The translations under genes were made by a program, and so were the position numbers. A stretch of DNA of 17,887 bases, taken from the NCBI GenBank assembly GCA_949287345.1, contig CASEGD010000050.1:1-17887 (forward strand). The letters run 5' to 3'. The notes below the pieces were generated by a model. It had not been told where the DNA came from and ran no database searches. It saw only the letters and a program-made list of their open reading frames with translations. Shown here in pieces: positions 1 to 13,838 of the stretch. Source of the stretch: an uncultured Phascolarctobacterium sp. GTDB taxonomy: Bacteria > Bacillota > Negativicutes > Acidaminococcales > Acidaminococcaceae. Within the stretch, counting starts at the first letter, position 1. Every line of letters begins with the position of its first letter.

Positions 1-62
1 ACTTCATCATCCTTCCATAACTGCCCCGCACAGGCGGCGCAGGCAAATACATATCTTTTATA

Positions 63-91
63 ATTATAATACAAAATTGCATAAATTACAA
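63..91 (-). promoter_or_regulatory. Promoter of a gene running off the left edge
   Basis: On the minus strand a -35 TTGTAA (86-91) and a perfect -10 TATAAT (63-68) are separated by exactly 17 bp. It points toward position 1, so the gene it serves lies mostly outside the window. A purine-rich GGAAGG followed by ATG near positions 4-15 could be its start, but too little is visible to call a gene. Confidence 0.55.
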
Positions 92-111
92 AAGCGCTTG
101 CGCTGATAAAA

Positions 112-143
112 ACAAAAAATCCCTGCTGAAAAACAGGGATTTT
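112..143 (-). terminator. Intrinsic terminator of the fadL-type porin gene
   Basis: A 10-bp stem (116-125 with 134-143) with an 8-nt loop sits 18 nt after the porin stop codon and is followed on the minus strand by a T-rich tail. It separates the porin from the promoter that faces the left edge. Confidence 0.85.
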
Positions 144-160
144 AAAAATTTTACTTAGTT

Positions 161-1381
161 TTAAAAATTACGCTGGTAGCTGATACCGATAATTTTGGTA
201 AAGCTGTCGTGAGTATGGGCACGGCCGCCATTAAAGTCGCCTGCTCCTTTAAACTCAAACTGCAAATCGCCTACATCCATCCAGCCCAGTGCCAGTGCAA
301 CGGTCTGGTCTTTATCATTGTAGCGCGCGCCGATGGAATAAGTGCGGCGGTTGCCGGTCGGCACCATAAAATCGCCGCCTTCATAAGGAATGGAAGATTC
401 ATCATAAGCATAGCCTGCCATTACAGTATATTTATCGCTCAGCTTATGCTCGATACCGATGGCATAACGCCAACCGTCCTCCCAGTTTTTAGGATTATTG
501 CTAGGGCCCATAGGAGTCATAATATTCAAAGCATCATAAGTGTCCCAACCGGTACGCACAGCATTCAATTCCACGCGAGTTTTATCATTAAACTTATGGC
601 TGTAACCGATATGCCAGGATTCCGGCAACGTTACTTCACCGTAAGCATCACCGAAAACATGTTCTAGAGTTGGATGATTGTAAGCATTAAAATCTGCTTC
701 CATGGAATGTTTAATACGGCTGCGGTATACAACGCCGATTTCGTTTTTATCGTCAAAAGCATAGTTGGCAGCAGCATTCCATCCCAAAGCATAACTTTCG
801 CCTTTAGTATGAGTAGGTACAGCCCAAGGCGTTAATGTAGCATTTTTTTCCATTGTCAAACGCACATAGTTAATTTCCGCACCAACAGCTGCGCTCCATT
901 TGTCATCAAATTTATGCGCAAAGGTCGGCGTAAGGCTTACGCCATCCAAACGTGAAACGAATGCATTGGTAGAAACAGGAGAATTACGTTCAAACTCTGA
1001 AACCATGGCAAAACGGCTGAAGGCACCGATACCGAACCAGTCTTTATCATTAATCTTTTTTACATAATAGCTGCCGGGCGCAAAACCAAAATGCACACGG
1101 TTATGGCCGCTATCATGAAACTCGCCTTTATACAAATCATAATCGCCATGCGGGCTAAGGTAAGTCACACTTGCTTTAAAAGCCTCGCCGTCCACCTTGG
1201 TAATGGAAGCCGGGTTGTATGCCACGTTGGCAGCATCGCCTTCGGCAAACATACGCGCGCCGCCCATGGCAACGCCTTCAGCACTCCACTCGTTAATGGC
1301 AAAGCCTTCAGCACCGGCAAGCTGCGGCACGGACAGGGCGCACAGTACGCCCATTGCGATAAGTTTATTTTTTACTTTCAC
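161..1381 (-). CDS. OmpP1/FadL-family outer-membrane transport protein
   Basis: A 406-residue outer-membrane beta-barrel of the OmpP1/FadL/TodX family, which lets hydrophobic compounds such as long-chain fatty acids cross the outer membrane. A signal peptide (about residues 1-24, cut after AGA) is followed by the family's N-terminal region (EGFAINEWSAEG, then GDAANVAYNPASI). Alternating aromatic strands run to the end (YQRNF*), where the final Phe is the usual barrel-assembly signal. The length matches the family. The start is GTG, with AGGGGTG about 6-8 nt upstream. The end of the upstream TPR-like gene and that gene's terminator lie just ahead, leaving only about 31 nt between the terminator tail and this start, so expression probably depends on read-through or a promoter inside the upstream gene. 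The substrate cannot be told from sequence. Confidence 0.9.
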   Translation of the reverse strand: MKVKNKLIAMGVLCALSVPQLAGAEGFAINEWSAEGVAMGGARMFAEGDAANVAYNPASITKVDGEAFKASVTYLSPHGDYDLYKGEFHDSGHNRVHFGFAPGSYYVKKINDKDWFGIGAFSRFAMVSEFERNSPVSTNAFVSRLDGVSLTPTFAHKFDDKWSAAVGAEINYVRLTMEKNATLTPWAVPTHTKGESYALGWNAAANYAFDDKNEIGVVYRSRIKHSMEADFNAYNHPTLEHVFGDAYGEVTLPESWHIGYSHKFNDKTRVELNAVRTGWDTYDALNIMTPMGPSNNPKNWEDGWRYAIGIEHKLSDKYTVMAGYAYDESSIPYEGGDFMVPTGNRRTYSIGARYNDKDQTVALALGWMDVGDLQFEFKGAGDFNGGRAHTHDSFTKIIGISYQRNF

Positions 1382-1412
1382 GTCGTCACCCCTGTTTAAA
1401 TTAGTACCTTAC

Positions 1413-1451
1413 AAAAAAATACGCCCTCTGCAATTTGCAAAAGGCGTATTT
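1413..1451 (-). terminator. Terminator-like hairpin between the TPR gene and the porin
   Basis: An 8-9 bp stem (AATACGCC at 1418-1425 with GGCGTATT at 1443-1450) is followed on the minus strand by seven Ts (1413-1419). It lies 8 nt after the TPR gene stop and 31 nt before the porin start, so it either ends the upstream message or partly attenuates transcription into the porin. Confidence 0.8.
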
Positions 1452-1458
1452 AAAATTA

Positions 1459-2196
1459 TCAGCCGTCAATGCCGCGGCGCAAAACAACCGGGCGTTGTTT
1501 CTCCCACGGTTTGTACTGCACGGTGCTGCAAAATTCGTAAGCTTTGTAGCGTTTGGCAGCGTCCGTTTCCTCTGCCGCTTTGGCTAAATCGCGCTCAGCA
1601 ATGTCGTTGCGCGGGTAATATTTAAACGCTTCGGCGTAGATGTCGCTTGCTTTGGCATCGTCACCGGCGTTATGCGCGTCCTCCGCCAAAAATTTCAGCG
1701 CAAAATATTTGTACGGGTTTACGCCGTTGTTGTCCTTTTCGGCTTCCACCATCTGCTGCGCTTCCGTAACAGCCTGTTCTTCCTTGCCTGCTTCGCGCAG
1801 TACGGTCAGGCGGCGGTAAAACATATCGCCGCGCGCGCAGCTGTGAAAGGTATGCGTGTAAGCACGGGCAATGTCGTAAGCCTGCTGCAGATAAGTCAGC
1901 GCCGCTTCTTCGCTTTTTGCCAGCTTCCACACAATTTCGGCAATGTCGCGCAGGCACAAAACTTTGTGTTCCGCTTCACTCAAGCCGTATTCCGGGTCGT
2001 CGTCCATGTTTGGCTCAACCTCCACCACGGTGCTTAAAACGCGCATCGCGCTTTCGGTGTCGCCCATCCAGTACAGCGCGCGTCCCACAATAGAGCGGCA
2101 TCGCCAGTCGTTATAATCCTGTATCATACCCACCGGCACGGGATATTCGCCGTTAGCCAGGCGGGATACATAGCCCATCCATTCCTGCTGGTCCAT
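1459..2196 (-). CDS. TPR-like cytoplasmic protein of unknown function
   Basis: A 245-residue protein without signal peptide or membrane segment. It is mainly alpha-helical, with helix pairs that look like degenerate tetratricopeptide repeats: GRALYWMGDTESAMRVL near residue 40, EEAALTYLQQAYDIARAY near 96, and DDAKASDIYAEAFKYYPRN near 180. These repeats usually bind other proteins, but no partner or enzymatic motif is visible. The start is well supported by AGGAGG (2204-2210) 7-8 nt before ATG. It has its own extended -10 promoter upstream and a terminator just after the stop, so it may be a single-gene unit that leaks into the porin gene. The tail (RRGIDG) has no sorting signal. I do not recognise a named family. 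Confidence 0.85.
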   Translation of the reverse strand: MDQQEWMGYVSRLANGEYPVPVGMIQDYNDWRCRSIVGRALYWMGDTESAMRVLSTVVEVEPNMDDDPEYGLSEAEHKVLCLRDIAEIVWKLAKSEEAALTYLQQAYDIARAYTHTFHSCARGDMFYRRLTVLREAGKEEQAVTEAQQMVEAEKDNNGVNPYKYFALKFLAEDAHNAGDDAKASDIYAEAFKYYPRNDIAERDLAKAAEETDAAKRYKAYEFCSTVQYKPWEKQRPVVLRRGIDG

Positions 2197-2246
2197 AATT
2201 TTTACCTCCTTATATATAAACGTTTTTGTTATCGTTCAGCGGTTTA

Positions 2247-2275
2247 ATTATACCATATAATCAGCAGGGCTTAAA
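2247..2275 (-). promoter_or_regulatory. Promoter of the TPR-like gene (extended -10)
   Basis: On the minus strand TGGTATAAT provides a perfect -10 (2247-2252) with the TGn extension. The -35 at 17 bp is poor (TTTAAG, 2270-2275). It lies just downstream of the small-RNA terminator and 50 bp before the start codon. Confidence 0.55.
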
Positions 2276-2276
2276 T

Positions 2277-2322
2277 AAAAAAAGGCTGCGGCTCACACCG
2301 AAAGATGTGCGCACAGCAGCCT
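2277..2322 (-). terminator. Intrinsic terminator of the small RNA
   Basis: A 7-bp GC-rich lower stem (2283-2289 with 2316-2322) closes an upper stem CACATC/GGTGTG around a UUUC loop. It is followed on the minus strand by seven Ts (2277-2283). It would also end any transcript reading through from the decarboxylase gene. Confidence 0.85.
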
Positions 2323-2373
2323 AAAATAAGGGAAAGCGTCTGTCAGGCAATGTATAAAAAATATCATTGCACA
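2277..2373 (-). ncRNA. Candidate small RNA, about 97 nt, not a family I recognise
   Basis: A perfect consensus promoter upstream predicts a transcript start near 2373, and a strong intrinsic terminator ends it near 2277. The predicted RNA has a 5' hairpin (GCAATG/CATTGC, 2347-2370), an unpaired linker of about 24 nt (2323-2346), and a terminator hairpin (2283-2322) followed by seven U. The linker contains the pyrimidine run CUUUCCCUU, which could pair with purine-rich Shine-Dalgarno sequences, as the C-rich motifs of some Firmicute small RNAs do (inference). The only frame inside it codes 24 residues from an ATG lacking a ribosome site and runs into the terminator, so a peptide is unlikely. 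It sits between the decarboxylase and TPR genes and reads in the same direction as both. No expression evidence is available. Confidence 0.65.
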
Positions 2374-2379
2374 ATGCAA

Positions 2380-2408
2380 ATTATACACTCCTAACAGAGA
2401 TTTGTCAA
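2380..2408 (-). promoter_or_regulatory. Perfect sigma-70/SigA consensus promoter of the small RNA
   Basis: TTGACA (2403-2408) and TATAAT (2380-2385) on the minus strand are separated by exactly 17 bp, matching the consensus at all twelve positions. The small dyad CATTG-TG-CAATG lies over the expected start site and may be an operator or part of the 5' hairpin. Confidence 0.8.
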
Positions 2409-2492
2409 GTTTTTCTGTAAATTATTAAAATTATTAACTTTTTGTAACATTTATTACCTTCTATAAGTATCCAAACGGACTAAAGGCAAAAA

Positions 2493-3662
2493 TTACTGTT
2501 CCTTTGCAGGTGATGCCTCAGGGATTTCGCCCTTAACATCTTCCCACACCACAAAGTTGGCCTTATTGAACCCGTTGAACGTCGTCGCCGATGCGGAGGT
2601 ATACGCGCCGCAGATAGGCACAAGGATTAAGTCGCCCTCCTCCTGGCGCACCGTCATTTTGCCGCGGAACATAATATCCAGCGAATCGCAGCTCGGCCCT
2701 GCAAAAGTTGCCGCCACCTGCTCGCCTTCCTTAAAGCTGATAAGCTTGAAATCCCACTGGTCAAACAGCACGCCGGAAAAAGTTCCGTACAAGCCGTCGT
2801 CAAGGAAATACCACGGCTGCCCGCCGCGCTCCGTCACGCCGATGACGCTGGTAATAAGGTTCACCGCCGTACCGCAGATAAAGCGCCCCGGTTCGCACCA
2901 GATTTCCACGCCCGGAAAGTCCTCATCAAGGCGCGCGTTGATTTGCTTTAACATCTCCGTAAGGTTAAAACGCACCTTCGGTTCGGGGATGGGGAAGCCG
3001 CCGCCGATATCCATAATGCGCAGCTGCATGCCGTTGGCCGCAGCTTCTTCAAAAATTTCGCGCGCAATATCCAGCGCGTTCAAATATGGGTCGGCGCTCG
3101 TCGTCTGGCTGCCTACATGAAAGGCAATGCCCGCAGCGTCAAGCCCTGCCGCTTTCGCTTTCTGCAAAAGCTCCAAAGCCTGCTCACGGCCTGCGCCGAA
3201 TTTTTTATTTAAGTCGACATGTGCCGAAGAATTATCTATCCTGATACGCAGGAGCGCCGTTGCACCCGGACACTCACGCGCCATTTTATCTATCTCACCT
3301 GCGCTGTCAAAAGTCATCTTGCCTACACCGGCATTACGGCAGGCACGCAAACCGTTTACCGTTTTCATCGGGTTGGCGTAAATCATCCTGCTGCCGTCCA
3401 CGCCCAAAGAAGCAAGCTCCATAATCTCGCCGTCGGAAGCAACGTCAAAGTTAGAGCCGAGGTCACGCATCAGCTCCAGAATGCGCCCGTGGGGATTAGC
3501 CTTAATGGCGTAAAATACTTTAACGCGCGGCATATGAGTGCGCAGAAGGTTATAATTTTTTTCAATCTGCTCCAGCGAAAGCACGAGTAACGGCGTTCCG
3601 TATTTTTCCGCCAGTGCTTCAACCGCAGTCCGGTTTAACTGAAAATATTTTTCTTTTTTCAT
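2493..3662 (-). CDS. PLP-dependent lysine/ornithine decarboxylase (fold type III, Selenomonas type)
   Basis: A 389-residue cytoplasmic decarboxylase that turns lysine into cadaverine and/or ornithine into putrescine. Residues counted from ATG: PLP lysine K54 in YAIKANP, HVGSQ at 182-186, phosphate-binding GGGFP from 220, EPGR at 257-260, catalytic Cys 325 in CDSLD, and Tyr 354 near the C-terminus. CDSLD and the length fit eukaryote-like ODC/LDC rather than DAP decarboxylase. The sequence closely resembles Selenomonas ruminantium LDC/ODC as I remember it. Of five positions reported to favour lysine there, V49, P57 and the Ser before the catalytic Cys are kept, and two differ (V47, K48). In Negativicutes cadaverine is attached to peptidoglycan and anchors the outer membrane, the likely role here. 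GGGGAGA lies 7 nt before ATG 3662; a GTG at 3668 is too close to it. Confidence 0.88.
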   Translation of the reverse strand: MKKEKYFQLNRTAVEALAEKYGTPLLVLSLEQIEKNYNLLRTHMPRVKVFYAIKANPHGRILELMRDLGSNFDVASDGEIMELASLGVDGSRMIYANPMKTVNGLRACRNAGVGKMTFDSAGEIDKMARECPGATALLRIRIDNSSAHVDLNKKFGAGREQALELLQKAKAAGLDAAGIAFHVGSQTTSADPYLNALDIAREIFEEAAANGMQLRIMDIGGGFPIPEPKVRFNLTEMLKQINARLDEDFPGVEIWCEPGRFICGTAVNLITSVIGVTERGGQPWYFLDDGLYGTFSGVLFDQWDFKLISFKEGEQVAATFAGPSCDSLDIMFRGKMTVRQEEGDLILVPICGAYTSASATTFNGFNKANFVVWEDVKGEIPEASPAKEQ

Positions 3663-3702
3663 ATCCACTCTCCCCTTGCCTATGCATTAATTAACGTATA
3701 TG

Positions 3703-3730
3703 ATTGTACCACAATTTTCAGAAAGTACAA
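3703..3730 (-). promoter_or_regulatory. Promoter of the decarboxylase gene
   Basis: On the minus strand TTGTAC (3725-3730) and TACAAT (3703-3708) are 16 bp apart, and the -10 carries the TGG extension. It lies about 40 bp before the start codon. No lysine riboswitch fits in the short leader. The remaining sequence up to the serS terminator (3731-3905) is AT-rich and shows no supported gene. Confidence 0.55.
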
Positions 3731-3905
3731 TAGGAAAATGAAAGAAATTACAAATTTTTAAAGGAGTTTAAACCAAAACTAAAATAATCACGGATAGCGG
3801 CAAATTTAAGTGGAAAAATGCTGATTTTTTAGGATTTTTTCATTATAACGCCCCTATACAAAATATTGTGCCGCCAGCCAAAGCGAAGGACAAAATACAG
3901 CAAAC

Positions 3906-3935
3906 AAAAAGGCCCTGCCTTTTAAGGGCAGAGCC
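3906..3935 (-). terminator. Intrinsic terminator of serS
   Basis: A GC-rich stem (GGCCCTGCC with GGGCAGAGCC, one bulge, 3911-3935) is followed on the minus strand by five Ts. It begins 16 nt after the serS stop codon. Confidence 0.85.
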
Positions 3936-3951
3936 ATTAAGTTTAAACTGA

Positions 3952-5256
<1,305 letters not shown>

Positions 5257-5271
5257 TTAAATAATACTATT

Positions 5272-5280
5272 ATTGTAGCA
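5272..5280 (-). promoter_or_regulatory. Probable serS promoter (extended -10)
   Basis: TGCTACAAT on the minus strand gives a -10 TACAAT (5272-5277) with the TGn extension, 40 bp before the start codon. No good -35 lies at 16-18 bp. Confidence 0.45.
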
Positions 5281-5355
5281 CAAACGGCGGCAATATTAAA
5301 GTAAAACGGGAAAAAGGTTTTAATTAAATCGAATTTTTTGCCCAAATGCCGCCGG

Positions 5356-5410
5356 TTTTTAAAAATTTTTTACAAAAACACTTGACGGGAGGCGCTAAAG
5401 CAGATATACT
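5356..5410 (+). promoter_or_regulatory. tRNA operon promoter with upstream A/T tracts
   Basis: TTGACG (5382-5387) and TATACT (5405-5410) are exactly 17 bp apart. Phased T and A tracts (5356-5379) sit directly upstream of the -35, as an UP element does at strong stable-RNA promoters. The first tRNA starts 29 bp after the -10. Confidence 0.8.
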
Positions 5411-5438
5411 ATTTCTTGCACAGTTGCAAAACTTGCTT

Positions 5439-5528
5439 GGCCCATTAGCTCAGTTGGTAGAGCACCTGACTCTTAATACCTGACTCTTAATCAGGGTGTC
5501 GTAGGTTCGAGGCCTACATGGGTCACCA
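5439..5528 (+). tRNA. tRNA-Lys(CUU) with a 14-bp tandem duplication of the anticodon arm; possibly non-functional
   Basis: Both acceptor halves (GGCCCAT, 5439-5445; ATGGGTC, 5518-5524), the D arm (5448-5463), the T arm and an encoded A-CCA end are intact. The unit ACCTGACTCTTAAT, holding position 26, the 5' anticodon stem and the CTT anticodon loop, occurs twice without a break (5464-5477, 5478-5491). It is followed by only one 3' half, CAGG. Removing one copy leaves a normal 76-nt tRNA-Lys with anticodon CUU. As written the gene is 90 nt: either the second copy forms the arm and 14 nt are inserted between positions 26 and 27, or the first copy pairs and leaves a loop of about 21 nt. Lysine AAG codons occur in nearby genes, so another tRNA-Lys must read them if this one fails. 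It is the first gene of the operon. An assembly or read error is possible. Confidence 0.85.
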
Positions 5529-5531
5529 TGT

Positions 5532-5606
5532 GGCCGGTTGGTCAAGCGGTTAAGACACCGCCCTTTCACGGCGGTATCGGGGGTTCGATTCCCCCACCGG
5601 TCACCA
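5532..5606 (+). tRNA. tRNA-Glu(UUC)
   Basis: A complete cloverleaf: acceptor GGCCGGT/ACCGGTC with a G-U at the second pair, anticodon stem CCGCC/GGCGG around loop CTTTCAC (anticodon TTC, 5565-5567), and an encoded CCA. Its U34 is a normal target of MnmA, whose gene lies at 9806-10888. It is the second gene of the operon, 3 nt after the Lys gene. Confidence 0.97.
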
Positions 5607-5609
5607 TAC

Positions 5610-5685
5610 GGGCGCTTAGCTCAGCTGGGAGAGCGTCTGCCTTACAAGCAGAATGTCAGCGGTTCGATCCCGTTAGCGCCCACCA
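5610..5685 (+). tRNA. tRNA-Val(UAC)
   Basis: A complete cloverleaf of 76 nt: acceptor GGGCGCT/AGCGCCC, anticodon stem TCTGC/GCAGA around loop CTTACAA (anticodon TAC, 5643-5645), and an encoded A-CCA end. It follows tRNA-Glu after 3 nt. Confidence 0.97.
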
Positions 5686-5701
5686 TTTCTTAACTTAATA
5701 C

Positions 5702-5778
5702 GGCCCGGTGGTTCAGTTGGTTAGAATGCCGCCCTGTCACGGCGGAGGTCGTGGGTTCGAGTCCCATCCGGGTCGCCA
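5702..5778 (+). tRNA. tRNA-Asp(GUC)
   Basis: A complete cloverleaf of 77 nt: acceptor GGCCCGG/CCGGGTC, anticodon stem CCGCC/GGCGG around loop CTGTCAC (anticodon GTC, 5736-5738), and G73-CCA encoded. It is the last intact gene of the operon. Confidence 0.97.
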
Positions 5779-5782
5779 TTAT

Positions 5783-5800
5783 GCCTCGGTAGCTCAGTTG
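5783..5800 (+). pseudogene. 5' fragment of a fifth tRNA gene, cut off in the D loop
   Basis: GCCTCGGTAGCTCAGTTG has the layout of tRNA positions 1 to about 18: a 7-nt acceptor strand, TA at 8-9, D-stem GCTC and the start of the D loop AGTTG. The rest of the D arm, the anticodon arm, T arm and 3' acceptor strand are missing, and the next base begins the operon terminator. The sequence resembles the start of tRNA-Phe in many bacteria, but the identity cannot be fixed from 18 nt. It begins 5 nt after tRNA-Asp, in the right place for the next gene of the array. Confidence 0.75.
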
Positions 5801-5827
5801 ATCCTGCTTAAATAAGCAGGATTTTTT
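5801..5827 (+). terminator. Intrinsic terminator of the tRNA operon
   Basis: A perfect 9-bp stem ATCCTGCTT/AAGCAGGAT (5801-5809, 5814-5822) with loop AAAT is followed by T6. It abuts the tRNA fragment with no spacer. Confidence 0.9.
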
Positions 5828-5844
5828 ATTTTGTTTGTTACGCA

Positions 5845-5874
5845 AAACCGGCAAGGTAGACGCCCTGCCGGTTT
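5845..5874 (-). terminator. Terminator between convergent units
   Basis: A 9-bp stem AAACCGGCA/TGCCGGTTT (5845-5853, 5866-5874) with a 12-nt loop. It lies 4 nt after the stop of the minus-strand exported-protein operon, and can also back up the tRNA operon terminator from the other side. Confidence 0.75.
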
Positions 5875-5878
5875 ATTT

Positions 5879-6472
5879 TTATGCTGCGTTTTGCGCACGC
5901 TCAACGCTTTTCATTTTTACCAGATCCATTTTGGTTAAGCCTAAATCGATGTTGTCTTTTAGTTTATAATCAATAATCGTGCCGGGCTCAAGGTCAATTT
6001 CGCGCCCCTTAAAAAACATCCCGGAAAGCGGCACTACAAAGCCTATTGCCGTGCTGACGGCCATGTTGGCGTAGTTGATGCCGCCTTTAATTTTTACGTC
6101 CTGCGGGAAGCTGACCGGTTTGCCGTTGGGCAGAAGCACGTCGTCCAGCTTAACGCGGATAACGGCGCTCTGGTTAAAAATGCGGCTGCCGTGCGCTTTG
6201 CGGATTACGCCGCCAAGCTCTGTTCCCTGCGGGATGATGACGATGTTTTCCACCGTCAGGTCATCCTTCAGCGTAAATTTAACACGGTCGCCTTTTTTAT
6301 GTACGTTACTGTCAAGCTTATCCACCAGCACAAGGTTTAAGACCGTATCTTCCGGTATATAAGCGTTGCCGGGTTCGACGCCTTTAATTTCTTCCGCCAG
6401 TGCGGCGTGTGCGTTAAAAAGCAGCAGGCACACCGCAAAAAGCACCGGCAGATAAGTTTTTATCAGTTTCAT
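5879..6472 (-). CDS. Exported protein of unknown function (second gene of a pair)
   Basis: A 197-residue protein with a signal peptide (residues 1-26, cut after ALA) and no other clear anchor except a short hydrophobic stretch near 137-152 (MAVSTAIGFVVPLSGMFF). The mature part is beta-rich: IPEDTVLNLVLVDKLDSNVHKKGDRVKF, then IIPQGTELGGVIRKAHGSR. It vaguely recalls the IPxGT...IPxGs beta-barrel of TrbI/VirB10-type proteins, but it is much shorter and no secretion genes are nearby, so I do not assign that function. It probably acts in the periplasm. The ribosome site GGAG overlaps the upstream gene's stop region, with 12 bp between the two genes, so they are co-transcribed and probably translationally linked. 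Confidence 0.82.
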   Translation of the reverse strand: MKLIKTYLPVLFAVCLLLFNAHAALAEEIKGVEPGNAYIPEDTVLNLVLVDKLDSNVHKKGDRVKFTLKDDLTVENIVIIPQGTELGGVIRKAHGSRIFNQSAVIRVKLDDVLLPNGKPVSFPQDVKIKGGINYANMAVSTAIGFVVPLSGMFFKGREIDLEPGTIIDYKLKDNIDLGLTKMDLVKMKSVERAQNAA

Positions 6473-6484
6473 GGCTTTGCTCCG

Positions 6485-7192
6485 TTATCTGTTCTGCATC
6501 AGTTTAGCGGCGTAGCTGCGCATCTGTTCGTTGGCCTGCCGCGTAAAATCAGCCGGCGGCAATGCAAAAGCTGTTTCCGCATCGACGGTGCTGCTCATCT
6601 CCAGCACGTTAAAGCGCGGCAGGGTGTTTACCTCGTAGCCCAGCCAATCGGCAGTGCCTTTGGCAAAATAAAAATACATCACGCGCTCGCCCTGCGTCAT
6701 CATGTCGTAATCCTCGCCGGTCAGGCTGCGGCCGCTTTGCGGGCGTTCGTTAAACCAGCTTACCAGCGTTTCGGCAAACGGCAGACTCATGCCCGGCAGT
6801 TCCGGCAGCTCGTCATAGGTTTTGTTAACGTAGTCAATAAAATACCAGCGCCCGCCTTTGGCAAAGGTGCAGTAATCGCGCAGCACCTTTCCTTCGCCGT
6901 CGGTGGTAACGCTGCGCTCGGCGTTAATGCCGTTCATTTCATTATATTCCGTGCGGATGTAACGCACCTTCTGCGCCGTTGTCAGTTTGGCGTAAGCGTC
7001 GGGCTCCAGCACGTCCTTCATGTCGATTGTTTGCTGCACCACAAGATGCACCGGATGTTTATCGCTGTTTAAAGCGCCGCCCAAAAGTTCTATCGTGCGC
7101 TGTCCCGGGCCGAAATCCGCCGCTAAGGCACAGGCAGCGTTAAAAATAAGCACCGTACAGAGCGCTGCAAGGCTTAACAAAAATTTTTTCAT
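6485..7192 (-). CDS. Exported protein of unknown function (first gene of a pair)
   Basis: A 235-residue protein with a typical signal peptide (MKKFLLSLAALCTVLIFNAACALA, cut near residue 24). A soluble, mixed region follows that contains GRWYFIDYVNKTYDELPELPGM and ERVMYFYFAKGTADWLGYEVNTLPRF. These lines suggest a periplasmic fold of the LolA/outer-membrane lipoprotein-sorting-like type (short beta-strands describing a modifiable substrate), but that is only an impression. No catalytic motif is visible. I chose ATG at 7192 because TGAGGTG lies 6-7 nt upstream; the longer frame from GTG 7201 would put that site inside the gene. It is first in an operon with the 5879-6472 gene and is driven by the extended -10 promoter upstream. 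Confidence 0.82.
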   Translation of the reverse strand: MKKFLLSLAALCTVLIFNAACALAADFGPGQRTIELLGGALNSDKHPVHLVVQQTIDMKDVLEPDAYAKLTTAQKVRYIRTEYNEMNGINAERSVTTDGEGKVLRDYCTFAKGGRWYFIDYVNKTYDELPELPGMSLPFAETLVSWFNERPQSGRSLTGEDYDMMTQGERVMYFYFAKGTADWLGYEVNTLPRFNVLEMSSTVDAETAFALPPADFTRQANEQMRSYAAKLMQNR

Positions 7193-7221
7193 GACGTTCA
7201 CCTCATTTATAAGATAGTTTA

Positions 7222-7230
7222 ATTATAACA
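7222..7230 (-). promoter_or_regulatory. Promoter of the exported-protein pair (extended -10)
   Basis: TGTTATAAT on the minus strand gives a perfect -10 (7222-7227) with the TGn extension, 30 bp before the start. No convincing -35 is present. Confidence 0.55.
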
Positions 7231-7259
7231 TATCCGTCGGGGATTGAAGGCTGTGATAT

Positions 7260-7281
7260 TTTTGTAAAATTTTTTACAAAA
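7260..7281. repeat. Perfect 10-bp palindrome in the divergent intergenic region
   Basis: The arms TTTTGTAAAA (7260-7269) and TTTTACAAAA (7272-7281) are separated by TT. It is centred about 55 bp upstream of the expected start of the minus-strand exported-protein operon, a distance used by CRP/FNR- or Rex-type regulators (TTGTAA-N6-TTACAA form). It lies about 70 bp upstream of the symporter -35. It is not GC-rich enough for an ordinary terminator. The regulator is unknown. Confidence 0.5.
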
Positions 7282-7317
7282 GCGCCGCAAGATTTAGAAT
7301 TTTCTGCCAAATGCACT

Positions 7318-7339
7318 GTATACATTAAATAGTGTATAC
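7318..7339. promoter_or_regulatory. Probable operator dyad upstream of the symporter promoter
   Basis: A perfect inverted repeat GTATACA-N8-TGTATAC (7318-7324, 7333-7339) ends 7 bp before the -35. The flanking CACT and AGTG form a second overlapping dyad. The position suits an activator or a co-operating repressor. I cannot name the protein. Confidence 0.5.
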
Positions 7340-7346
7340 TTTTTCC

Positions 7347-7374
7347 TTGCCATTATGGCATTATATGGTATAAT
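7347..7374 (+). promoter_or_regulatory. Symporter promoter with a palindrome over the -35
   Basis: TTGCCA (7347-7352) and TATAAT (7369-7374) are 16 bp apart, and the -10 has the TGG extension. The odd palindrome TGCCATTATGGCA (7348-7360) covers the -35 and half the spacer, where a bound repressor would block RNA polymerase. Confidence 0.7.
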
Positions 7375-7386
7375 TAATTTTATAAG

Positions 7387-7420
7387 GCGAAGTAACGGTA
7401 TGGGAACAACATTACTTCGC
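7387..7420 (+). other. Leader hairpin of the symporter mRNA
   Basis: A perfect 9-bp stem GCGAAGTAA/TTACTTCGC (7387-7395, 7412-7420) with a 16-nt loop in the 5' leader. No U-tract follows, so it is not a terminator; it may protect the message or bind a factor. The ribosome site AAAGAGG lies after it. Confidence 0.55.
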
Positions 7421-7452
7421 GTAAAAAATTTAAAAGAAAAGAGGTATTTCAC

Positions 7453-8766
7453 ATGACTGATGAAAACAAAAAAGTTGATGTGAAGGAAACAGCCGATTCC
7501 ATCATCCGCGAAACCAAGGCTAAATCCAACAACAGCCAGTTTATTTTGTGGATGGGGGCATTGGTTCTCGGCGCTGTTTTAGGCTGGATGGGTATTCCGG
7601 CGCTGAACGAGTTCTTTAATTTCGTAGCTACCGTATTTACCCGCCTGTTCCAGTTCATCGCAGTTCCTACTATCGCGCTGGCAGTTATTACCACGCTGGC
7701 GGCTCTTGGCGGCAACAAAGAAACCGGTATTATTTTTGCACATGCAGTTACCTACACCTTGCTTACTACATTTTTAGCCGCCTTCATCGGCCTTGGCCTG
7801 TACCTGTACATTGCTCCGGATAACCTTCCGGCAGACATTGTAAACGCAGGCACCGAAGTTGTTAAAGGCCAAAGCGTTGCAGCGCTCAGCTACTATGACC
7901 ACATCCTCGGCGTTATCCCGAACAACGTACTTGCTCCGTTCCTCAGCGGCAACGTACTTTCCGTTATGCTTATCGCTGCTGCAGTTGGTCTGGCACTGGC
8001 TTTCATGCCCAGAACCGAAAACCGCGAAGCTCTGCTGAAAATCATCCAGGGCGTTCAGGAACTGGCATTCACCCTTATCCGTGCCATCCTCTACGTTCTG
8101 CCGATTGGTATCGTAGCTTTTGCTGGCCAGCTTTCCGCACAGATTGAAGCAGGCGTAATTGTTGGCGCACTGGGCAAATACACCGCAGTTGTAATGCTCG
8201 GCAACGCTATCCAGTTCTTCATCGTTCTGCCGATTATCCTTGTTCTGCGCGGCCTGAACCCGATTTACGTATTCCGCCAGATGGGCCAGGCAATCGCTGT
8301 TGCGCTCTTCACCAAGAGCTCTGCCGGCACCCTGCCTGTAACCCTGGCCTGCTCCGAGCAGAACCTGAAATGCAACCCGAAAGTTTCCCGCTTTGTACTG
8401 CCGATTTGCACCACCATTAACATGAACGGCTGCGCTGCCTTCATTCTGGTAACCTCCCTGTTCCTTATGCAGAACGCAGGCATGGAACTGACCATGACCA
8501 CCATGCTTACCTGGGTATGCATCGCAGTTCTGGCCGCTGTCGGCAACGCAGGCGTACCGATGGGCTGCTACTTCCTGACCCTCTCCTTGATGGCAGGCAT
8601 TGGCGCACCGATTGGTTTGATGGGTATTATCCTGCCGATTTACACCATTATCGACATGATTGAAACCGCCGAAAACGTATGGTCCGACGCTTGCGTATGC
8701 GCAATGGTTGACCACGACCTGAAAGGCAAACTTTCTGAAGACGGCGACATTCCCGCTGCTCTGTAA
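7453..8766 (+). CDS. Sodium-coupled amino-acid symporter, DAACS family, SstT-like pocket
   Basis: A 437-residue inner-membrane transporter of the dicarboxylate/amino acid:cation symporter family (GltPh/GltP/SstT). A hydrophilic N-terminus of about 28 residues precedes the membrane segments. Key elements: hairpin HP1 SSAGTLP (289-295), the TM7 motif at NMNG (323-326), an HP2-like GVPMGCYF...GIGAPIG region, and TM8 DMIETAENVWSD (401-412). In glutamate/aspartate carriers TM7 reads NMDG and TM8 has Arg at the position of E404 here, where it holds the substrate's acidic side chain. This protein has Asn325 and Glu404; Glu is also found there in the Ser/Thr carrier SstT (from memory). A neutral or basic amino acid is therefore more likely than glutamate. 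Regular codon use (CTG, AAC, ATC, CCG) suggests high expression. It stands alone with its own promoter and terminator. Confidence 0.92.
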   Translation: MTDENKKVDVKETADSIIRETKAKSNNSQFILWMGALVLGAVLGWMGIPALNEFFNFVATVFTRLFQFIAVPTIALAVITTLAALGGNKETGIIFAHAVTYTLLTTFLAAFIGLGLYLYIAPDNLPADIVNAGTEVVKGQSVAALSYYDHILGVIPNNVLAPFLSGNVLSVMLIAAAVGLALAFMPRTENREALLKIIQGVQELAFTLIRAILYVLPIGIVAFAGQLSAQIEAGVIVGALGKYTAVVMLGNAIQFFIVLPIILVLRGLNPIYVFRQMGQAIAVALFTKSSAGTLPVTLACSEQNLKCNPKVSRFVLPICTTINMNGCAAFILVTSLFLMQNAGMELTMTTMLTWVCIAVLAAVGNAGVPMGCYFLTLSLMAGIGAPIGLMGIILPIYTIIDMIETAENVWSDACVCAMVDHDLKGKLSEDGDIPAAL

Positions 8767-8781
8767 TTTGCCATAATAAAC

Positions 8782-8817
8782 AAAAAGCACTCTGATTTAA
8801 AATCAGGGTGCTTTTTT
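8782..8817 (+). terminator. Bidirectional terminator between convergent genes
   Basis: The stem AAAAAGCAC-CTGAT / ATCAG-GTGCTTTTT with one mismatch is followed by T6 on the plus strand and T5 on the minus strand. It ends the symporter message and the rrf2-mnmA operon from the other side. Confidence 0.9.
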
Positions 8818-8833
8818 ATTGCCCAAAACTTTA

Positions 8834-9802
8834 TTAAAACCTGTCAAAAACGGAACGGCTGCCGCACTGCAAACTGCGGGCGGAATAATTCGCCAGCGGT
8901 ATAAATGTTAAGCGCTGCGCTTCCGGGAACAGGTAAAAGCCCGTGTACTGGTAGCCGCTGTACTGCGTCAGCGTCAGGCGCACCATGCACGGCACACCGC
9001 CGGACATACATTTAAACTGCATGTACTGCGAGTTCAGCCCCTGAAAGGTTTTATACTCGCCCGCTTCGACAAGCGTTAAATTTTTCAGCTGCTCCGGCAG
9101 CCCCAGCGGCGTTACGTCCACCTGTTGGTAACTGTACTGCGGCGGCGCTTCAAATTCGGTTATCTCGATAACTTCTTCTGCAGGCGTGCCTTTGGATTTA
9201 TCCGCAGGCAGCGTTATATGTTTTGTTACCGGTGCTGGCGGCGGCAGCTGCGTTTTGCCCGCCAGTGCCGCTTTAAAAATCTGCGGCGCATCACCAACAG
9301 CAGCGGCATTAAAGCTCATTGCCACAGTATCGCTCGCGCCTCTGGCAATCATCGGCCCGCTTACGGGCAAGTCTGCCAGCAAATCACTGCCGAACGCATA
9401 CGGAATTGCCAAACTGTAAGCCGCGCCTTCTTTATTAACATAGTAAGTAAAATCCGTAGGTTTGGTTAAGTACAATTTTTCCTGCGGCGGCGTTATTTTA
9501 ACCGTTTTGCGTATTACGCGCGGTTCTTTTTTTACCTGCTGCGCAGTTTTTTCTTCGGCTTCGCCCTCCGGGGCGGATTTTACATTCTGCGCGTTTTTTA
9601 CATTTCCGTTTTGCAGTTGCGTTTTATTTATAACCGGAGGCTTTTTAGCTGCTTCGCCGCTTTCTTTTGCTTCCGGCGCGTTAAGCTGCGCATTAACATC
9701 AGCCAGCATGTCAGATGTGATGGCGTTGGGCTGCACCTGTGCCGCCTGCGCACTGCCAGCCAACAGCAGGCACGCTGTTAAAATACCGATAGTTTTCTTC
9801 AT
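8834..9802 (-). CDS. Exported protein of unknown function downstream of mnmA
   Basis: A 322-residue protein with a signal peptide (residues 1-20, cut after AQA). A low-complexity linker rich in Ala, Lys, Glu, Gln and Pro follows to about residue 110, and then a globular C-terminal half with YYVNKEGAAYSLAIPYAFGSDLL and LTQYSGYQYTGFYLF. A disordered linker after the signal peptide is typical of periplasmic proteins that reach toward the wall or the outer membrane. Three cysteines in the last 60 residues could form a disulphide. The start follows AAAGGAG by 7 nt, and that site lies inside the end of mnmA: only 3 bp separate the two genes. Expression is therefore tied to the rrf2-HD-mnmA operon, though no link to tRNA thiolation is evident. 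I do not recognise a family. Confidence 0.82.
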   Translation of the reverse strand: MKKTIGILTACLLLAGSAQAAQVQPNAITSDMLADVNAQLNAPEAKESGEAAKKPPVINKTQLQNGNVKNAQNVKSAPEGEAEEKTAQQVKKEPRVIRKTVKITPPQEKLYLTKPTDFTYYVNKEGAAYSLAIPYAFGSDLLADLPVSGPMIARGASDTVAMSFNAAAVGDAPQIFKAALAGKTQLPPPAPVTKHITLPADKSKGTPAEEVIEITEFEAPPQYSYQQVDVTPLGLPEQLKNLTLVEAGEYKTFQGLNSQYMQFKCMSGGVPCMVRLTLTQYSGYQYTGFYLFPEAQRLTFIPLANYSARSLQCGSRSVFDRF

Positions 9803-9805
9803 GGT

Positions 9806-10888
9806 TTACTCCTTTAACGCGGTTTTGATAATGCCGCCGCCGACAACGTATTCGCCGCTGTAAAATACCACGGCCTGCCCCGGCGTTACGGCGCGCATCG
9901 GCTCGTCAAACGTAACCTTTACGCAACCGCCGCAAGGCTCAATCGTTGCAGGCACATCCTCCTGACGGTAGCGCGTTTTGGCGGTTACACGCAGCGGCGC
10001 GTCCAGCTTGTCAAGCATAATAAAATTGCAGTTTTCCGCAAGCAGGGCTTTACTAAACAACGCCTCCTGCGGGCCAACGATGACATTGCCGCTTGCCATG
10101 TCCTTATCGATAACGTACAACGGGTATTCATAGGCAATGCCCAAGCCTTTGCGCTGGCCGATGGTGTAGTTTATCATGCCCTTGTGCTTACCCAGAATCT
10201 GCCCGTTGAGATGCACAAAATTACCAGCAGCGAGCTGCGCTTTTTCCACGCGCCCAATCAGCCCAGCATAATCGCCGTCAGGCACAAAGCAAATGTCCTG
10301 GCTGTCAGGCTTCTGCGCCGTTACCAGCCCCGCCGCTTCCGCCGTTTGGCGTATTTCGTCCTTGCTCACTTCCGCCAGCGGCAAAAGCACATGCGCAAGC
10401 TGCTCCTGCGTCAGGCTGAACAGCATATAGCTCTGGTCCTTGCGCCTGTCCTCGCCGCGCGCCAGCAGCCAGCGCCCTCGTTCCTCATCATAAAAAATGC
10501 GTGCGTAATGCCCTGTCGCTAAATAATCACAGCCCAGCGCTTTGGCGTAATCCAAAAGCGCGCCGAACTTGATGTATTTGTTGCAGTCCACGCACGGGTT
10601 AGGCGTGCGCCCGCACTGATATTCTTCGATAAAATGGCGGATGACCTTACTGCGGAAGCAGCCGCACAAATCTACAACCTTGTGTTCAATGCCCAGCTTT
10701 GCCGCAACCGCCTGCGCATCCTTAATGTCGCGCTCAATGTTCAGCGCCGCACCCGGCAGCCCGATATCCTCGCCGCCGAACATCCGCGCCGTCGCACCCA
10801 CAACTTCATAACCCTGCTGCAAAAGCATCAGCGCCGCCGCCGAACTGTCCACGCCGCCGCTCATGGCGGCTAAAACCTTTTTGCTCAT
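9806..10888 (-). CDS. mnmA: tRNA-specific 2-thiouridylase
   Basis: Makes 2-thiouridine at wobble position 34 of tRNA-Lys(UUU), -Glu(UUC) and -Gln(UUG), taking sulphur from a cysteine desulphurase and using ATP to activate the base. The 360-residue cytoplasmic protein has the PP-loop SGGVDSS (10-16), the NPCVDC motif with catalytic Cys99, the second catalytic Cys200 in DSQDICFVP, the tRNA-contacting GQRKGLGI stretch and a C-terminal beta-barrel. The length is normal. Its ATG overlaps the TGA of the HD gene (ATGA), and no strong ribosome site precedes it, so translation is probably coupled. The usual partner iscS is not in the window, although the operon begins with an Rrf2 regulator as in classical rrf2-iscS-mnmA clusters. 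Confidence 0.97.
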   Translation of the reverse strand: MSKKVLAAMSGGVDSSAAALMLLQQGYEVVGATARMFGGEDIGLPGAALNIERDIKDAQAVAAKLGIEHKVVDLCGCFRSKVIRHFIEEYQCGRTPNPCVDCNKYIKFGALLDYAKALGCDYLATGHYARIFYDEERGRWLLARGEDRRKDQSYMLFSLTQEQLAHVLLPLAEVSKDEIRQTAEAAGLVTAQKPDSQDICFVPDGDYAGLIGRVEKAQLAAGNFVHLNGQILGKHKGMINYTIGQRKGLGIAYEYPLYVIDKDMASGNVIVGPQEALFSKALLAENCNFIMLDKLDAPLRVTAKTRYRQEDVPATIEPCGGCVKVTFDEPMRAVTPGQAVVFYSGEYVVGGGIIKTALKE

Positions 10889-11472
10889 TTTTCAAAACCG
10901 GCGCAGATTTCGTTAATCTTCGCTTCATCCACACGCATGGCGGCAATGGTTTTTTCAAACAGCTCGTCCAGCGTCCAGCCAAGCATTTCAGCGCCCTGCG
11001 CGATAACCTCGCGGTGGCAGCCCGCAGCAAACTTTTTATCCTTAAACTTTTTCTTCAGCGATTTTACTTCCATATCGCTGACGCTTTTAGACGGGCGCAT
11101 TAAAGCCGCCGCGCCGATGAGGCCGGTCAGTTCGTCAGCCGCAAACAGCACCTTTTCCATCTGGTGTTCCGGCGCAATATCAACGCACAGGCCGTAGCCG
11201 TGGCACGCCGTAGCGTGTATGAGTTTTTCGTCAATACCGCGTTCGCGCATAATCTCCTGCGATTTTACGCAGTGCTGATCAGGGTACATTTCAAAATCAA
11301 GGTCGTGCAAAAGCCCTGCCAGCGCCCAAAAATCGGCTTCATCGCCATAGCCAAGTTCGTTCGCGTACCAGCGCATAACGCCTTCCACCGTCAGCGCATG
11401 GCGCAGATGAAACGGGTCTTTGTTATATTCCTTTAATAATTCCCATGCCTGTTCGCGTGTTAAATTCTCCAT
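10885..11472 (-). CDS. HD-domain (HDIG-type) hydrolase
   Basis: A 195-residue cytoplasmic metal-dependent phosphohydrolase of the HD superfamily. The metal ligands are visible in order: His25 (FHLRHA), His56-Asp57 (GLLHDLDFE), His86/His91 (HATACHGYG) and Asp113 (AADELTG). The C-terminal part (PSKSVSDMEVKSLKKKFKDKKFAAG) fits the small HDIG proteins often annotated as hydrolases, whose substrate is unknown (nucleotides or phosphate esters are likely). GGGAGG precedes ATG by 8 nt. It lies 44 bp after rrf2 and overlaps mnmA by 4 bp, so it is the second gene of that operon; it takes the place where iscS often stands. Confidence 0.9.
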   Translation of the reverse strand: MENLTREQAWELLKEYNKDPFHLRHALTVEGVMRWYANELGYGDEADFWALAGLLHDLDFEMYPDQHCVKSQEIMRERGIDEKLIHATACHGYGLCVDIAPEHQMEKVLFAADELTGLIGAAALMRPSKSVSDMEVKSLKKKFKDKKFAAGCHREVIAQGAEMLGWTLDELFEKTIAAMRVDEAKINEICAGFEK

Positions 11473-11516
11473 AAAAAATTCCTCCCAAATATTTATCGCA
11501 AAAGTTTTAAACGGCT

Positions 11517-11948
11517 TTATTTACAGCAGCATTTTTCGTCCTGCCACTGCATTAAATCGGCCAGCGTGATGTTATCGACGACGCCGTTAATCGCGTTGCC
11601 GATACGCCGCCACACTTCCGTCGTTACGCAGTCGTCCATGCGCGGGCAGCTTGCCGGATGCACCGACGCCGCACACGCCACCGGGGCAAGGTCGCCCTCC
11701 AGCACGCGCAGAATCTCGCCCACCGTGCAGGCTTCCGGTTCTTTTGCCAGTTTATAGCCGCCCTGCGCGCCACGGGCACTTACTACCAGCCCCGCCTTGC
11801 TTAAACGGCTGATAATCTGCTCCAGATACTTGTCCGAAATATCCTGCCGCAGCGAAATTTCCTTAACCGGAGTGTAGCCGTATTGATGATTGTTTGCCAA
11901 ATCGAGCATTAAGCGCAAAGCGTAACGCCCCTTAGTTGAAATCTTCAT
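11517..11948 (-). CDS. Rrf2/IscR-family transcriptional regulator
   Basis: A 143-residue winged-helix regulator. The N-terminal MKISTKGRYALRLMLDLA and ISDKYLEQIISRLSKAGLV...GAQGGY make up the DNA-binding domain. Three cysteines at 92, 101 and 107 match the Fe-S cluster site of IscR, with Cys74 extra. The C-terminus ends in three consecutive cysteines (140-142), which is unusual. It probably senses Fe-S or cysteine status and controls its own operon. I start at ATG 11948 since AGGAG lies 7-8 nt before it; the TTG two codons upstream is too close. An operator-like dyad fills the promoter spacer just ahead of the gene, which strongly suggests autoregulation. IscR and CymR-like roles cannot be separated from sequence alone, though the cysteines favour the Fe-S type. 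Confidence 0.92.
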   Translation of the reverse strand: MKISTKGRYALRLMLDLANNHQYGYTPVKEISLRQDISDKYLEQIISRLSKAGLVVSARGAQGGYKLAKEPEACTVGEILRVLEGDLAPVACAASVHPASCPRMDDCVTTEVWRRIGNAINGVVDNITLADLMQWQDEKCCCK

Positions 11949-11971
11949 GCCCAAACTCCTTTCGTAAAAAT

Positions 11972-12000
11972 ATTTTACTACTAACGCAGTAGGAATTCAA
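11972..12000 (-). promoter_or_regulatory. rrf2 operon promoter with operator in the spacer
   Basis: On the minus strand TTGAAT (11995-12000) and TAAAAT (11972-11977) are 17 bp apart. The dyad CTACTAACGCAGTAG (11978-11992, arms CTACT/AGTAG) fills almost the entire spacer. A protein bound there excludes RNA polymerase, consistent with autorepression by the Rrf2 product. Confidence 0.72.
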
Positions 12001-12038
12001 TAAAAACTTGTTTTTTCACCATCCCGCCCGCGGCGGAT

Positions 12039-12067
12039 AAAATAAAAAATTAACGGTTTTTTATTTT
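12039..12067. repeat. AT-only perfect inverted repeat in a divergent intergenic region
   Basis: The 11-bp arms AAAATAAAAAA (12039-12049) and TTTTTTATTTT (12057-12067) surround TTAACGG. It lies between the rrf2 operon and the plus-strand unit. It lacks the GC stem of a terminator; a binding site or DNA-bending element is possible. Confidence 0.4.
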
Positions 12068-12076
12068 GCCTGTATG

Positions 12077-12085
12077 TGTTAAAAT
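12077..12085 (+). promoter_or_regulatory. Possible promoter of the 12134 gene
   Basis: TGTTAAAAT gives a -10 TAAAAT (12080-12085) with TGn extension, about 50 bp before the start. The -35 region is only a T-run. Confidence 0.3.
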
Positions 12086-12133
12086 AAAAGCATAAATTTC
12101 ATTTTAAAAAACTATAAGCCGGAGGCGTTGACA

Positions 12134-12481
12134 ATGGAAAATAAAGAAAACATGGATATTGAAAAAGAGTTTCAGCATTATCTTGATATTTTTAAAAAGG
12201 ACAAGGAGCTGGGCAAGGCTTTAAGCCTCGTTTCCTTCCCAGCGCTGTTCAACGATAAATTTTTGCAGGAGCACAGCAAATTCACTTCGCTGAACGATTT
12301 GGTCATCCGCAGCGGCTTCGGCATTATGAACCTGCTGGAAGTTGAAAACGTGAACCAGGAAAAATGGAACGCTTACATTGCCAAAAACAGTAACTGCACC
12401 ACCTGGTACGAATTTGGCAAGCTGGCGATGATTGAATGGATGAAAGCCAAAATTGAGGAAGTAAAAAACGCAGCCAACTGA
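12134..12481 (+). CDS. Small cytoplasmic protein of unknown function
   Basis: A 115-residue, highly charged, mostly helical protein (N-terminal ENKENMDIEKEFQHYLDIFKKDKELGKAL) without signal peptide or membrane segment. The middle (FTSLNDLVIRSGFGIMNLLEV) and end (TTWYEFGKLAMIEWMKAKIEEVK) look like packed helices. One Cys is present. I do not recognise a family. GGAGG (12121-12125) lies 8 nt before ATG 12134; a TTG two codons upstream would be too close. It is followed after 31 bp by the AEC transporter in the same direction, so the two probably share a transcript, and it may be a partner of that transporter, but this is only by position. Confidence 0.78.
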   Translation: MENKENMDIEKEFQHYLDIFKKDKELGKALSLVSFPALFNDKFLQEHSKFTSLNDLVIRSGFGIMNLLEVENVNQEKWNAYIAKNSNCTTWYEFGKLAMIEWMKAKIEEVKNAAN

Positions 12482-12512
12482 TTTAAATCCGGCGGAAAGG
12501 ATGTGAGCCCGC

Positions 12513-13406: not shown

Positions 13407-13430
13407 GCGTTTGCCTTTTTAGATATTTTA

Positions 13431-13444
13431 CGAACAAATTTTCA
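13431..13444 (+). promoter_or_regulatory. Weaker LexA-like box upstream of the LysM gene
   Basis: CGAACAAATTTTCA matches the Firmicute LexA consensus CGAACRNRYGTTYC at 12 of 14 positions and lies 10 bp before the -35. A further half-site GTTCG sits at 13469-13473 within the promoter spacer. Confidence 0.5.
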
Positions 13445-13453
13445 TAAATATGC

Positions 13454-13482
13454 TTGACAAAATGTGATGTTCGTTTTATTAT
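13454..13482 (+). promoter_or_regulatory. Promoter of the LysM gene
   Basis: TTGACA (13454-13459), a perfect -35, and TATTAT (13477-13482) are 17 bp apart. The expected start site (about 13489) lies directly ahead of the strong LexA box, so a bound repressor would block it. Confidence 0.75.
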
Positions 13483-13490
13483 ATTTGTAA

Positions 13491-13504
13491 CGAACAGATG
13501 TTTT
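13491..13504 (+). promoter_or_regulatory. LexA (SOS) box
   Basis: CGAACAGATGTTTT matches the Bacillus-type LexA consensus CGAACRNRYGTTYC at 13 of 14 positions and overlaps the expected transcription start of the LysM gene. This predicts induction by DNA damage. Confidence 0.72.
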
Positions 13505-13523
13505 GAAAGGCAGTTGATTATTT

Positions 13524-13838
13524 ATGAAAAAGCTTATAACTGTAATTATGGCAAGCCTTTTATTATACAGCGGCTATGTTTTGGGCACCTGCGCCGCGGC
13601 CGATGAAGTTTACACCACCAAAACCGTAACCGTATACAGCGGCGACACCATGTGGGATATCGCCTCCCGCTGGACGGAGGACGGAGAAGACGTGCGCGCG
13701 GTTATCTACCGCATTTGCGAAGCCAACGGGCTGGCAAGCACCGACTTGCAGCCGGGGCAGAAAATTATCGTGCCGGTGCGCGTACAGCTTAACGATGCCA
13801 ACATGATGCTTGCCGAAGCAGCGAACAACCATTTATAA
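13524..13838 (+). CDS. Exported LysM protein resembling the SOS cell-division inhibitor YneA
   Basis: A 104-residue protein with an N-terminal hydrophobic segment (residues 1-25), a signal peptide or single membrane anchor, and one LysM peptidoglycan-binding domain (about 31-82: KTVTVYSGDTMWDIASRWTEDG...IYRICEANGL...LQPGQKIIVPV). This size and layout match Bacillus YneA, made under LexA control to delay division after DNA damage. A LexA box covers the promoter here, supporting the same role; lexA itself is not adjacent. With two membranes, the LysM part would sit in the periplasm on the wall. The ribosome site AAAGG lies 13 nt before ATG, unusually far, which may keep translation low. A plain LysM wall protein remains possible. 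Confidence 0.85.
   Translation: MKKLITVIMASLLLYSGYVLGTCAAADEVYTTKTVTVYSGDTMWDIASRWTEDGEDVRAVIYRICEANGLASTDLQPGQKIIVPVRVQLNDANMMLAEAANNHL

Follow-up and report, generated by a model that had tools for sequence, protein, structure and literature searches.

A candidate small RNA gene of Phascolarctobacterium that seems to have begun as the tail of another gene

What is encoded between the PLP-dependent decarboxylase gene and the TPR-like protein gene of an uncultured Phascolarctobacterium sp., where does it come from, and which messages could it act on? These questions are raised by a stretch of DNA of 17,887 nucleotides (GenBank assembly GCA_949287345.1, contig CASEGD010000050.1, positions 1 to 17,887), referred to here as the window, in which a consensus promoter is followed at a short distance by a strong terminator. 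In this study, the locus was compared with 59 genomes of the family Acidaminococcaceae, whose genera are labelled g1 to g18; g1 is the genus of the window and six of its genomes were compared. The element is probably a short non-coding RNA with a conserved stretch that could pair with mRNAs for the synthesis and import of the branched-chain amino acids (BCAAs) leucine, isoleucine and valine, and the comparison of sequences suggests that this RNA began as the tail of another gene and later gained a promoter of its own.

The predicted RNA of the window

The promoter is the sole place in the window that matches the sigma-70 consensus at all twelve bases, and 400 windows simulated with its dinucleotide steps contained four such matches. 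A transcript of about 97 nt is predicted from it. The fold of this RNA has an energy of -30.1 kcal/mol, compared with a mean of -18.6 kcal/mol for shuffled sequences (z -4.0; 0 of 200 shuffles as good), and consists, in this order, of a 5' hairpin, an open stretch of 24 nt and the terminator (Table 1). The preliminary description had proposed exactly this arrangement, with a perfect promoter, a terminator with seven Us about 97 nt further on and two hairpins joined by a single-stranded linker, and it is borne out in each of these points.

Table 1. Features of the predicted RNA and its neighbours in the window.
Feature	Position	Strand	Basis or remark
-35 hexamer TTGACA	2403..2408	minus	sequence; invariant in 6/6 g1 genomes
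-10 hexamer TATAAT, 17-bp spacer	2380..2385	minus	sequence; invariant in 6/6 g1 genomes
Predicted sRNA, about 97 nt	2277..2373	minus	5' end inferred from the promoter
5' hairpin	2347..2370	minus	fold; predicted in 6/6 g1 genomes, letters vary
Linker and presumed seed GCUUUCCCUUAUUUU, single-stranded	2323..2337	minus	invariant in 16/17 members; complementary to BCAA mRNAs
Terminator stem-loop	2284..2321	minus	fold; other genera differ in bases but retain the stem
U tract, seven	2277..2283	minus	sequence
TPR-like protein gene, downstream neighbour	1459..2196	minus	also after the module in three other genera
PLP-dependent decarboxylase gene, upstream neighbour	2493..3668	minus	occupies the place of alr (or alr-livJ) in other genera

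By alignment, the element is present in all six g1 genomes. Besides both promoter hexamers, the region from the linker through the first arm of the terminator stem is invariant in them, and past the terminator the sequences diverge. A near-palindrome, TTGCATTGTGCAA, is located at 2367-2379, right after the -10 hexamer; it is also invariant in the six genomes and could be an operator.

A coding gene was considered and rejected. The longest reading frame on the transcript strand has 31 amino acids, starts with GTG and overlaps the promoter; it meets a stop after 15 amino acids in G005 and is frame-shifted in G001, and is thus not conserved. Since this frame is disrupted and the promoter hexamers, like the linker, do not vary within g1, the element is read as an RNA and not as a protein gene. 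A known family was likewise rejected, because no Rfam covariance model matched the window at its gathering score; a scan of two modules linked to alr in other genera (L106 and L133) also gave no Rfam match. The absence of a credible reading frame and of a recognizable family, both noted in the preliminary description, is therefore confirmed within this scope, and its proposal of a new small RNA gene is well supported. What the sequence offers is what would be expected of a stand-alone sRNA gene: an own promoter and an intrinsic terminator, with no conserved frame between them.

The linker in the family and the sites complementary to it

The linker directly followed by a terminator, referred to as the module, is present in 17 of the 59 Acidaminococcaceae genomes, distributed over eight genera. 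Sixteen of these were found with the pattern GCTTTCCCTTATTTT followed by GRYT within 0-2 nt (0/59 for the reversed control); the 17th, G006, has one changed letter in the linker and was recovered in a one-mismatch search. In all 17 members, the linker is followed by a hairpin with an energy between -11.1 and -26.2 kcal/mol and then by a run of Ts. A strict rule, which demands that a stem with 5 or more pairs begin 0-4 nt past the linker and be followed by Ts, is passed by 16 of them, the exception being G011 with an interrupted stem (-24.8). The letters of the terminator stems differ among the genera and the pairing is kept; for example, the second pair is G-C, G-U or A-U. The linker itself is constant across genera whose alr proteins are down to 53% identical to the query, while the flanks differ, so that it is indeed the conserved part of the RNA, as had been supposed. 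The 5' parts of the g1 members and the alr-linked members are not homologous, and BLAST searches with the whole element gave only short partial matches outside g1, the linker region among them. The start-site region gave weak BLAST matches, which were rejected, being coding-like in the three places closest to one motif. Linkers with one mismatch occur at 83 places in the 59 genomes, of which 78 were examined; one of these (L166, in G015) passes the strict rule weakly (-6.7) and was left out of the member count, and a looser terminator test flagged about 10 further places.

The same pattern was searched in 84,980 species, each represented by one genome, and was found at 65 places. Fifteen of these belong to the Acidaminococcaceae, and 14 of the 15 pass the strict rule; only one of the 50 others does so (L103), and weakly (-6.9 kcal/mol), which indicates that the places outside the family are due to chance. 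With a looser hairpin test, values of -12 to -13 were obtained for L097 and L138, which both resemble coding sequence. The family count includes L141, a contig titled Acholeplasmataceae, which fails the strict rule solely through an interrupted stem. This contig shares the context of its motif with G011:C38 and is probably misbinned Acidaminococcaceae DNA. The preliminary description had suggested a search for conservation over the Negativicutes; the module was found in just one family, the Acidaminococcaceae.

All 59 family genomes were searched for AAATAAGGGAAA, which is exactly complementary to the core of the linker. In g1, it occurs twice in the 3'UTR of leuB in all six genomes, at a distance of 30 or 45 nt, and only one further site, in G005, was found beyond the RNA gene and this 3'UTR. 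Between G000 and G001, the spacing of the leuB sites is shifted by 15 nt; the sites themselves are kept, as is GCAGCCGTA, which extends the first one on its 5' side. Also, a T-box-led symporter gene of the SBF family in g1 has a perfect complement of 17 nt about 25 nt after its stop codon in G000, the genome in which its context was examined; the 17-mer is present in five of the six g1 genomes. The CstA gene carries TAAGGGAAAG, a 10-nt complement, in its ribosome site in five of the six (Pfam checked in G001). In g17, the site lies at the ribosome site of ilvA in G021, G071, G031 and G070, in the 3'UTR of ilvC in G021, G031 and G070, and in G070 also before ilvC, after a T-box. Copies at ribosome sites of livJ-type genes are found in G021 and in G011 (g7), and in G006 (g2) the site follows ilvB, in its 3'UTR. 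In the two g10 genomes, no exact site other than the module itself was found. LeuB, IlvC and IlvA pass the NCBIfam cut-offs and the IlvB piece is incomplete; the livJ-type proteins score below the cut-off of the BCAA-binding model and well above that of Pfam for Peripla_BP_6. The earlier suggestion that the linker is complementary to ribosome sites does not hold in general, as the g1 leuB sites and the ilvC and ilvB sites of relatives lie in 3'UTRs, and it does hold at ilvA and livJ of relatives. Family-wide, a complement just upstream of an ATG occurs at 65 places, six of which are module antisense, compared with 49 for the reversed control.

Two further loci are of note here. In G022 (L325:845-1260), a T-box that seems to read isoleucine precedes a short segment in which no coding gene is evident; AAATAAGGGAAA and a terminator-like hairpin come next, and this locus would be either a non-coding RNA under T-box control or a relic. 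In G021:C27, a second copy of the ilvC 3'UTR site, again with a terminator-like hairpin, lies 2.4 kb away after another gene (L189 and L190). From an alignment, three T-boxes seem to read AUC, for isoleucine.

The 17 genomes that bear the module contain 29 exact sites (modules removed), compared with 7 for the reversed pattern, and the 42 other genomes contain 48 compared with 59 (Fisher p 2e-4 for bearing against others). A BCAA gene is present at 18 of the 29 sites and at 6 of the 48 (p 9e-6 for sites that are not independent). These genes were identified using tblastn with leuB, leuC, ilvA, ilvB, ilvC, livJ and the symporter, references that were, except for leuC, drawn from the sites themselves, and the BCAA class was chosen after the matches had been seen; therefore, the remaining 54 sites were annotated with Pfam, one frame each. 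In the non-bearing genomes, tblastn accounted for 5 of the 48 sites, all in G031 and G070, the assemblies of which have no alr match and may have a gap where the module lies. Pfam annotation of the 43 sites in the remaining 40 non-bearing genomes added one BCAA gene, leuA of G013, a genome without the module; the coding sequence of this gene contains an exact AAATAAGGGAAA in sense orientation (L334, G013:C114). In G018, also non-bearing, a site lies between aspartate-family genes. If the sites of the bearing genomes are collapsed to one per genus and gene, so that the 12 leuB sites, which six closely related genomes have inherited from a single event, count once, BCAA genes are found at 6 of 17 sites compared with 1 of 43 with G031 and G070 excluded (p 0.0014), and compared with 6 of 48 with these two taken as lacking the module (p 0.065); the other 11 of the 17 collapsed sites are away from BCAA genes. 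None of the 30 reversed-pattern loci has any of the tblastn reference genes. Exact sites in mRNAs thus exceed chance, for a category chosen post hoc, and one-mismatch complements show little excess (371 compared with 330 over 12 genomes). Duplex energy alone was rejected as a means of finding targets, because the leuB site (-20.8) ranks only about 20th of 6,320 tiles.

The recurrence of the motif near BCAA genes, at times upstream of them, would also be expected if CTTTCCCTTATTT acted as DNA, either by binding a BCAA transcription regulator or as a roadblock; the hairpin would then be no more than the terminator of the gene upstream. In each of the six BCAA loci that remain after collapsing, however, the motif has a single orientation, that which is complementary to the sRNA, and often lies in the 3'UTR, whereas in 17 of 17 modules it has the opposite orientation and directly precedes the terminator. 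In addition, the perfect promoter of g1 would direct a transcript through the motif. A DNA element is therefore considered unlikely.

The roles of the RNAs could also be reversed, in that the 3'UTRs of BCAA genes would release regulatory RNAs, composed of AAAUAAGGGAAAG and a terminator, for which the present RNA would be a decoy (sponge). By eye, the site does lie just before a terminator-like hairpin at ilvC of G021, ilvB of G006, leuB of g1 and the T-box RNA of G022. The copies at the ribosome sites of ilvA and livJ, however, share their polarity with the 3'UTR sites, which would make them targets of the present RNA and not of the 3'UTRs, and for this reason the reversed arrangement is thought rather unlikely.

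Genomic place and origin

The linker directly follows the stop codon of alr (alanine racemase) in g5, g18, g2, g10 and two g17 genomes. In another g17 genome (G036), it lies about 345 nt past alr, in G024 and G007 it comes after alr-livJ, and in G011 livJ lies on one contig and alr-livJ on another. In the 11 members outside g1, no promoter within 130 nt of the linker matches the consensus at more than 8 of 12 bases, compared with 12 of 12 in all six g1 members. The alr-linked members thus have the makeup of 3'UTR-derived RNAs, with a conserved seed between stop codon and terminator and no promoter near.

After the module, a TPR protein is encoded that is 51% identical to that of the window in g5, 51% in g18 and 44% in g7, and in g2 the frame after the module starts like this protein (by eye). 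In g1 and g5 the TPR gene is followed by a FadL-type gene, which in g2 is found further along (by eye, with Pfam for the window only). As the TPR gene following the module is common to g1 and three of the other genera, the window RNA lies at the orthologous place, with alr missing from it; the alr of g1 is a distant gene, 37-38% identical to the query, on other contigs (e.g., G000:C111 and G001:C4). The last codons of alr, where it is directly upstream of the module, form a hairpin with a mean of -9.1 kcal/mol in 8 genomes compared with -4.2 in 29 others (p 0.005), a comparison that is uncorrected for relatedness, counts three alr-livJ genomes among the 29 and dropped 6 of 43 loci with no stop in reach. 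With this hairpin, a 3'UTR RNA would share the two-hairpin shape of the free gene. The RNA would accordingly descend from the 3' end of the alr transcript, its g1 member now being a free gene with a consensus promoter.

The position before the TPR gene, which the module has in g1, g5, g18 and g7 and, judged by eye from the start of the frame, in g2, could instead point to a cis element, a leader or attenuator of this downstream gene. Module and TPR gene can nonetheless be found apart: a g17 locus (L100) keeps the module at the end of alr with convergent genes resembling those of thiamine synthesis (by eye) in place of TPR, and alr is followed by TPR (by eye) without a module in G012, G017, G077, G080, G008 and G068. 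The window also has a second TATAAT on the minus strand past the terminator (2252-2247), possibly the TPR gene's own promoter, and a cis role is regarded as quite improbable. A plain terminator with a chance promoter, for which the linker would be a mere U- and C-rich spacer, is highly improbable, for even though AT-rich DNA gives many weak promoter matches, the linker is invariant across genera (alr down to 53% identity) with differing flanks and the promoter is invariant in all six g1 genomes.

Proposed action and related systems

The explanation that we find somewhat probable is that of a trans-acting, Hfq-type base-pairing sRNA of BCAA metabolism, born from a 3'UTR and with 3'UTR sites that are maybe sponges. 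Its seed would be the linker, held between the 5' hairpin and the terminator, which would pair with AAAUAAGGGAAA(G) in mRNAs for BCAA synthesis and uptake. Pairing at ribosome sites (ilvA and livJ in relatives, and the weaker 10-nt match of cstA in g1) would block translation; the ilvA and livJ sites cover or adjoin the Shine-Dalgarno region, so that repression would be the simplest reading. The 3'UTR sites by terminators (two at leuB and one at the T-box-led symporter in g1, and those of ilvC and ilvB in relatives) could titrate the RNA or alter mRNA stability. At leuB, with one unpaired G, and at the symporter, the complementarity continues into the first arm of the terminator stem of the RNA, and pairing there could help to open the stem and expose the RNA to decay.

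A more tentative extension, possible but on the whole doubtful, is that the displacement of alr freed the 3'UTR RNA and that a two-layer BCAA circuit has formed, in which messages turned on by T-boxes (AUC, isoleucine) or by need would titrate the RNA via their 3'UTR sites and thereby free other BCAA mRNAs, while pairing at leuB and the symporter could open the terminator stem.

Hfq would be the likely helper. Its gene is present in 55 of the 59 family genomes, including all 17 that bear the module, and no match to it was found in the three g15 genomes (G019, G029 and G034), which also have no module. The only hint within the RNA is the U tract of seven, which suggests binding to Hfq.

Several known systems resemble the proposed RNA in part. 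DapZ, from the 3' end of dapB in Salmonella, is set apart by its description, as its promoter lies just upstream of the dapB stop codon, whereas no promoter is in sight for the alr-linked members and the window member has left the coding gene. GcvB acts on liv and ilv genes and differs in length and seed; the window, moreover, has no Rfam match. In excerpts of one source, GcvB and SroC, a sponge acting on it, are like the proposed case in that an sRNA on mRNAs of amino acid transport and metabolism is titrated by RNA from a target transcript (PMC9438474), and the 3'UTR sites adjoining terminators recall such sponges. The same excerpts describe SdhX and other 3'UTR-derived sRNAs in which a short seed is conserved and the rest of the 3'UTR RNA varies (PMC9438474); here, one seed belongs to a 3'UTR in some genera, whereas another genus has it in a gene that stands alone. 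A lactococcal sRNA that alters alr expression is, from the excerpt consulted, a different thing (PMC13109727). Among the literature matches listed, there was no base-pairing sRNA of Phascolarctobacterium or other Negativicutes, nor the present RNA.

As its seed, the range of species and the names of partner genes are all given, the RNA is testable at once. At one and the same chromosomal position, the seed is found both within a 3'UTR and in a gene of its own, a case that is relevant to the origin of sRNA genes. Elsewhere in the window, four tRNA genes are clustered at 5439-5775.
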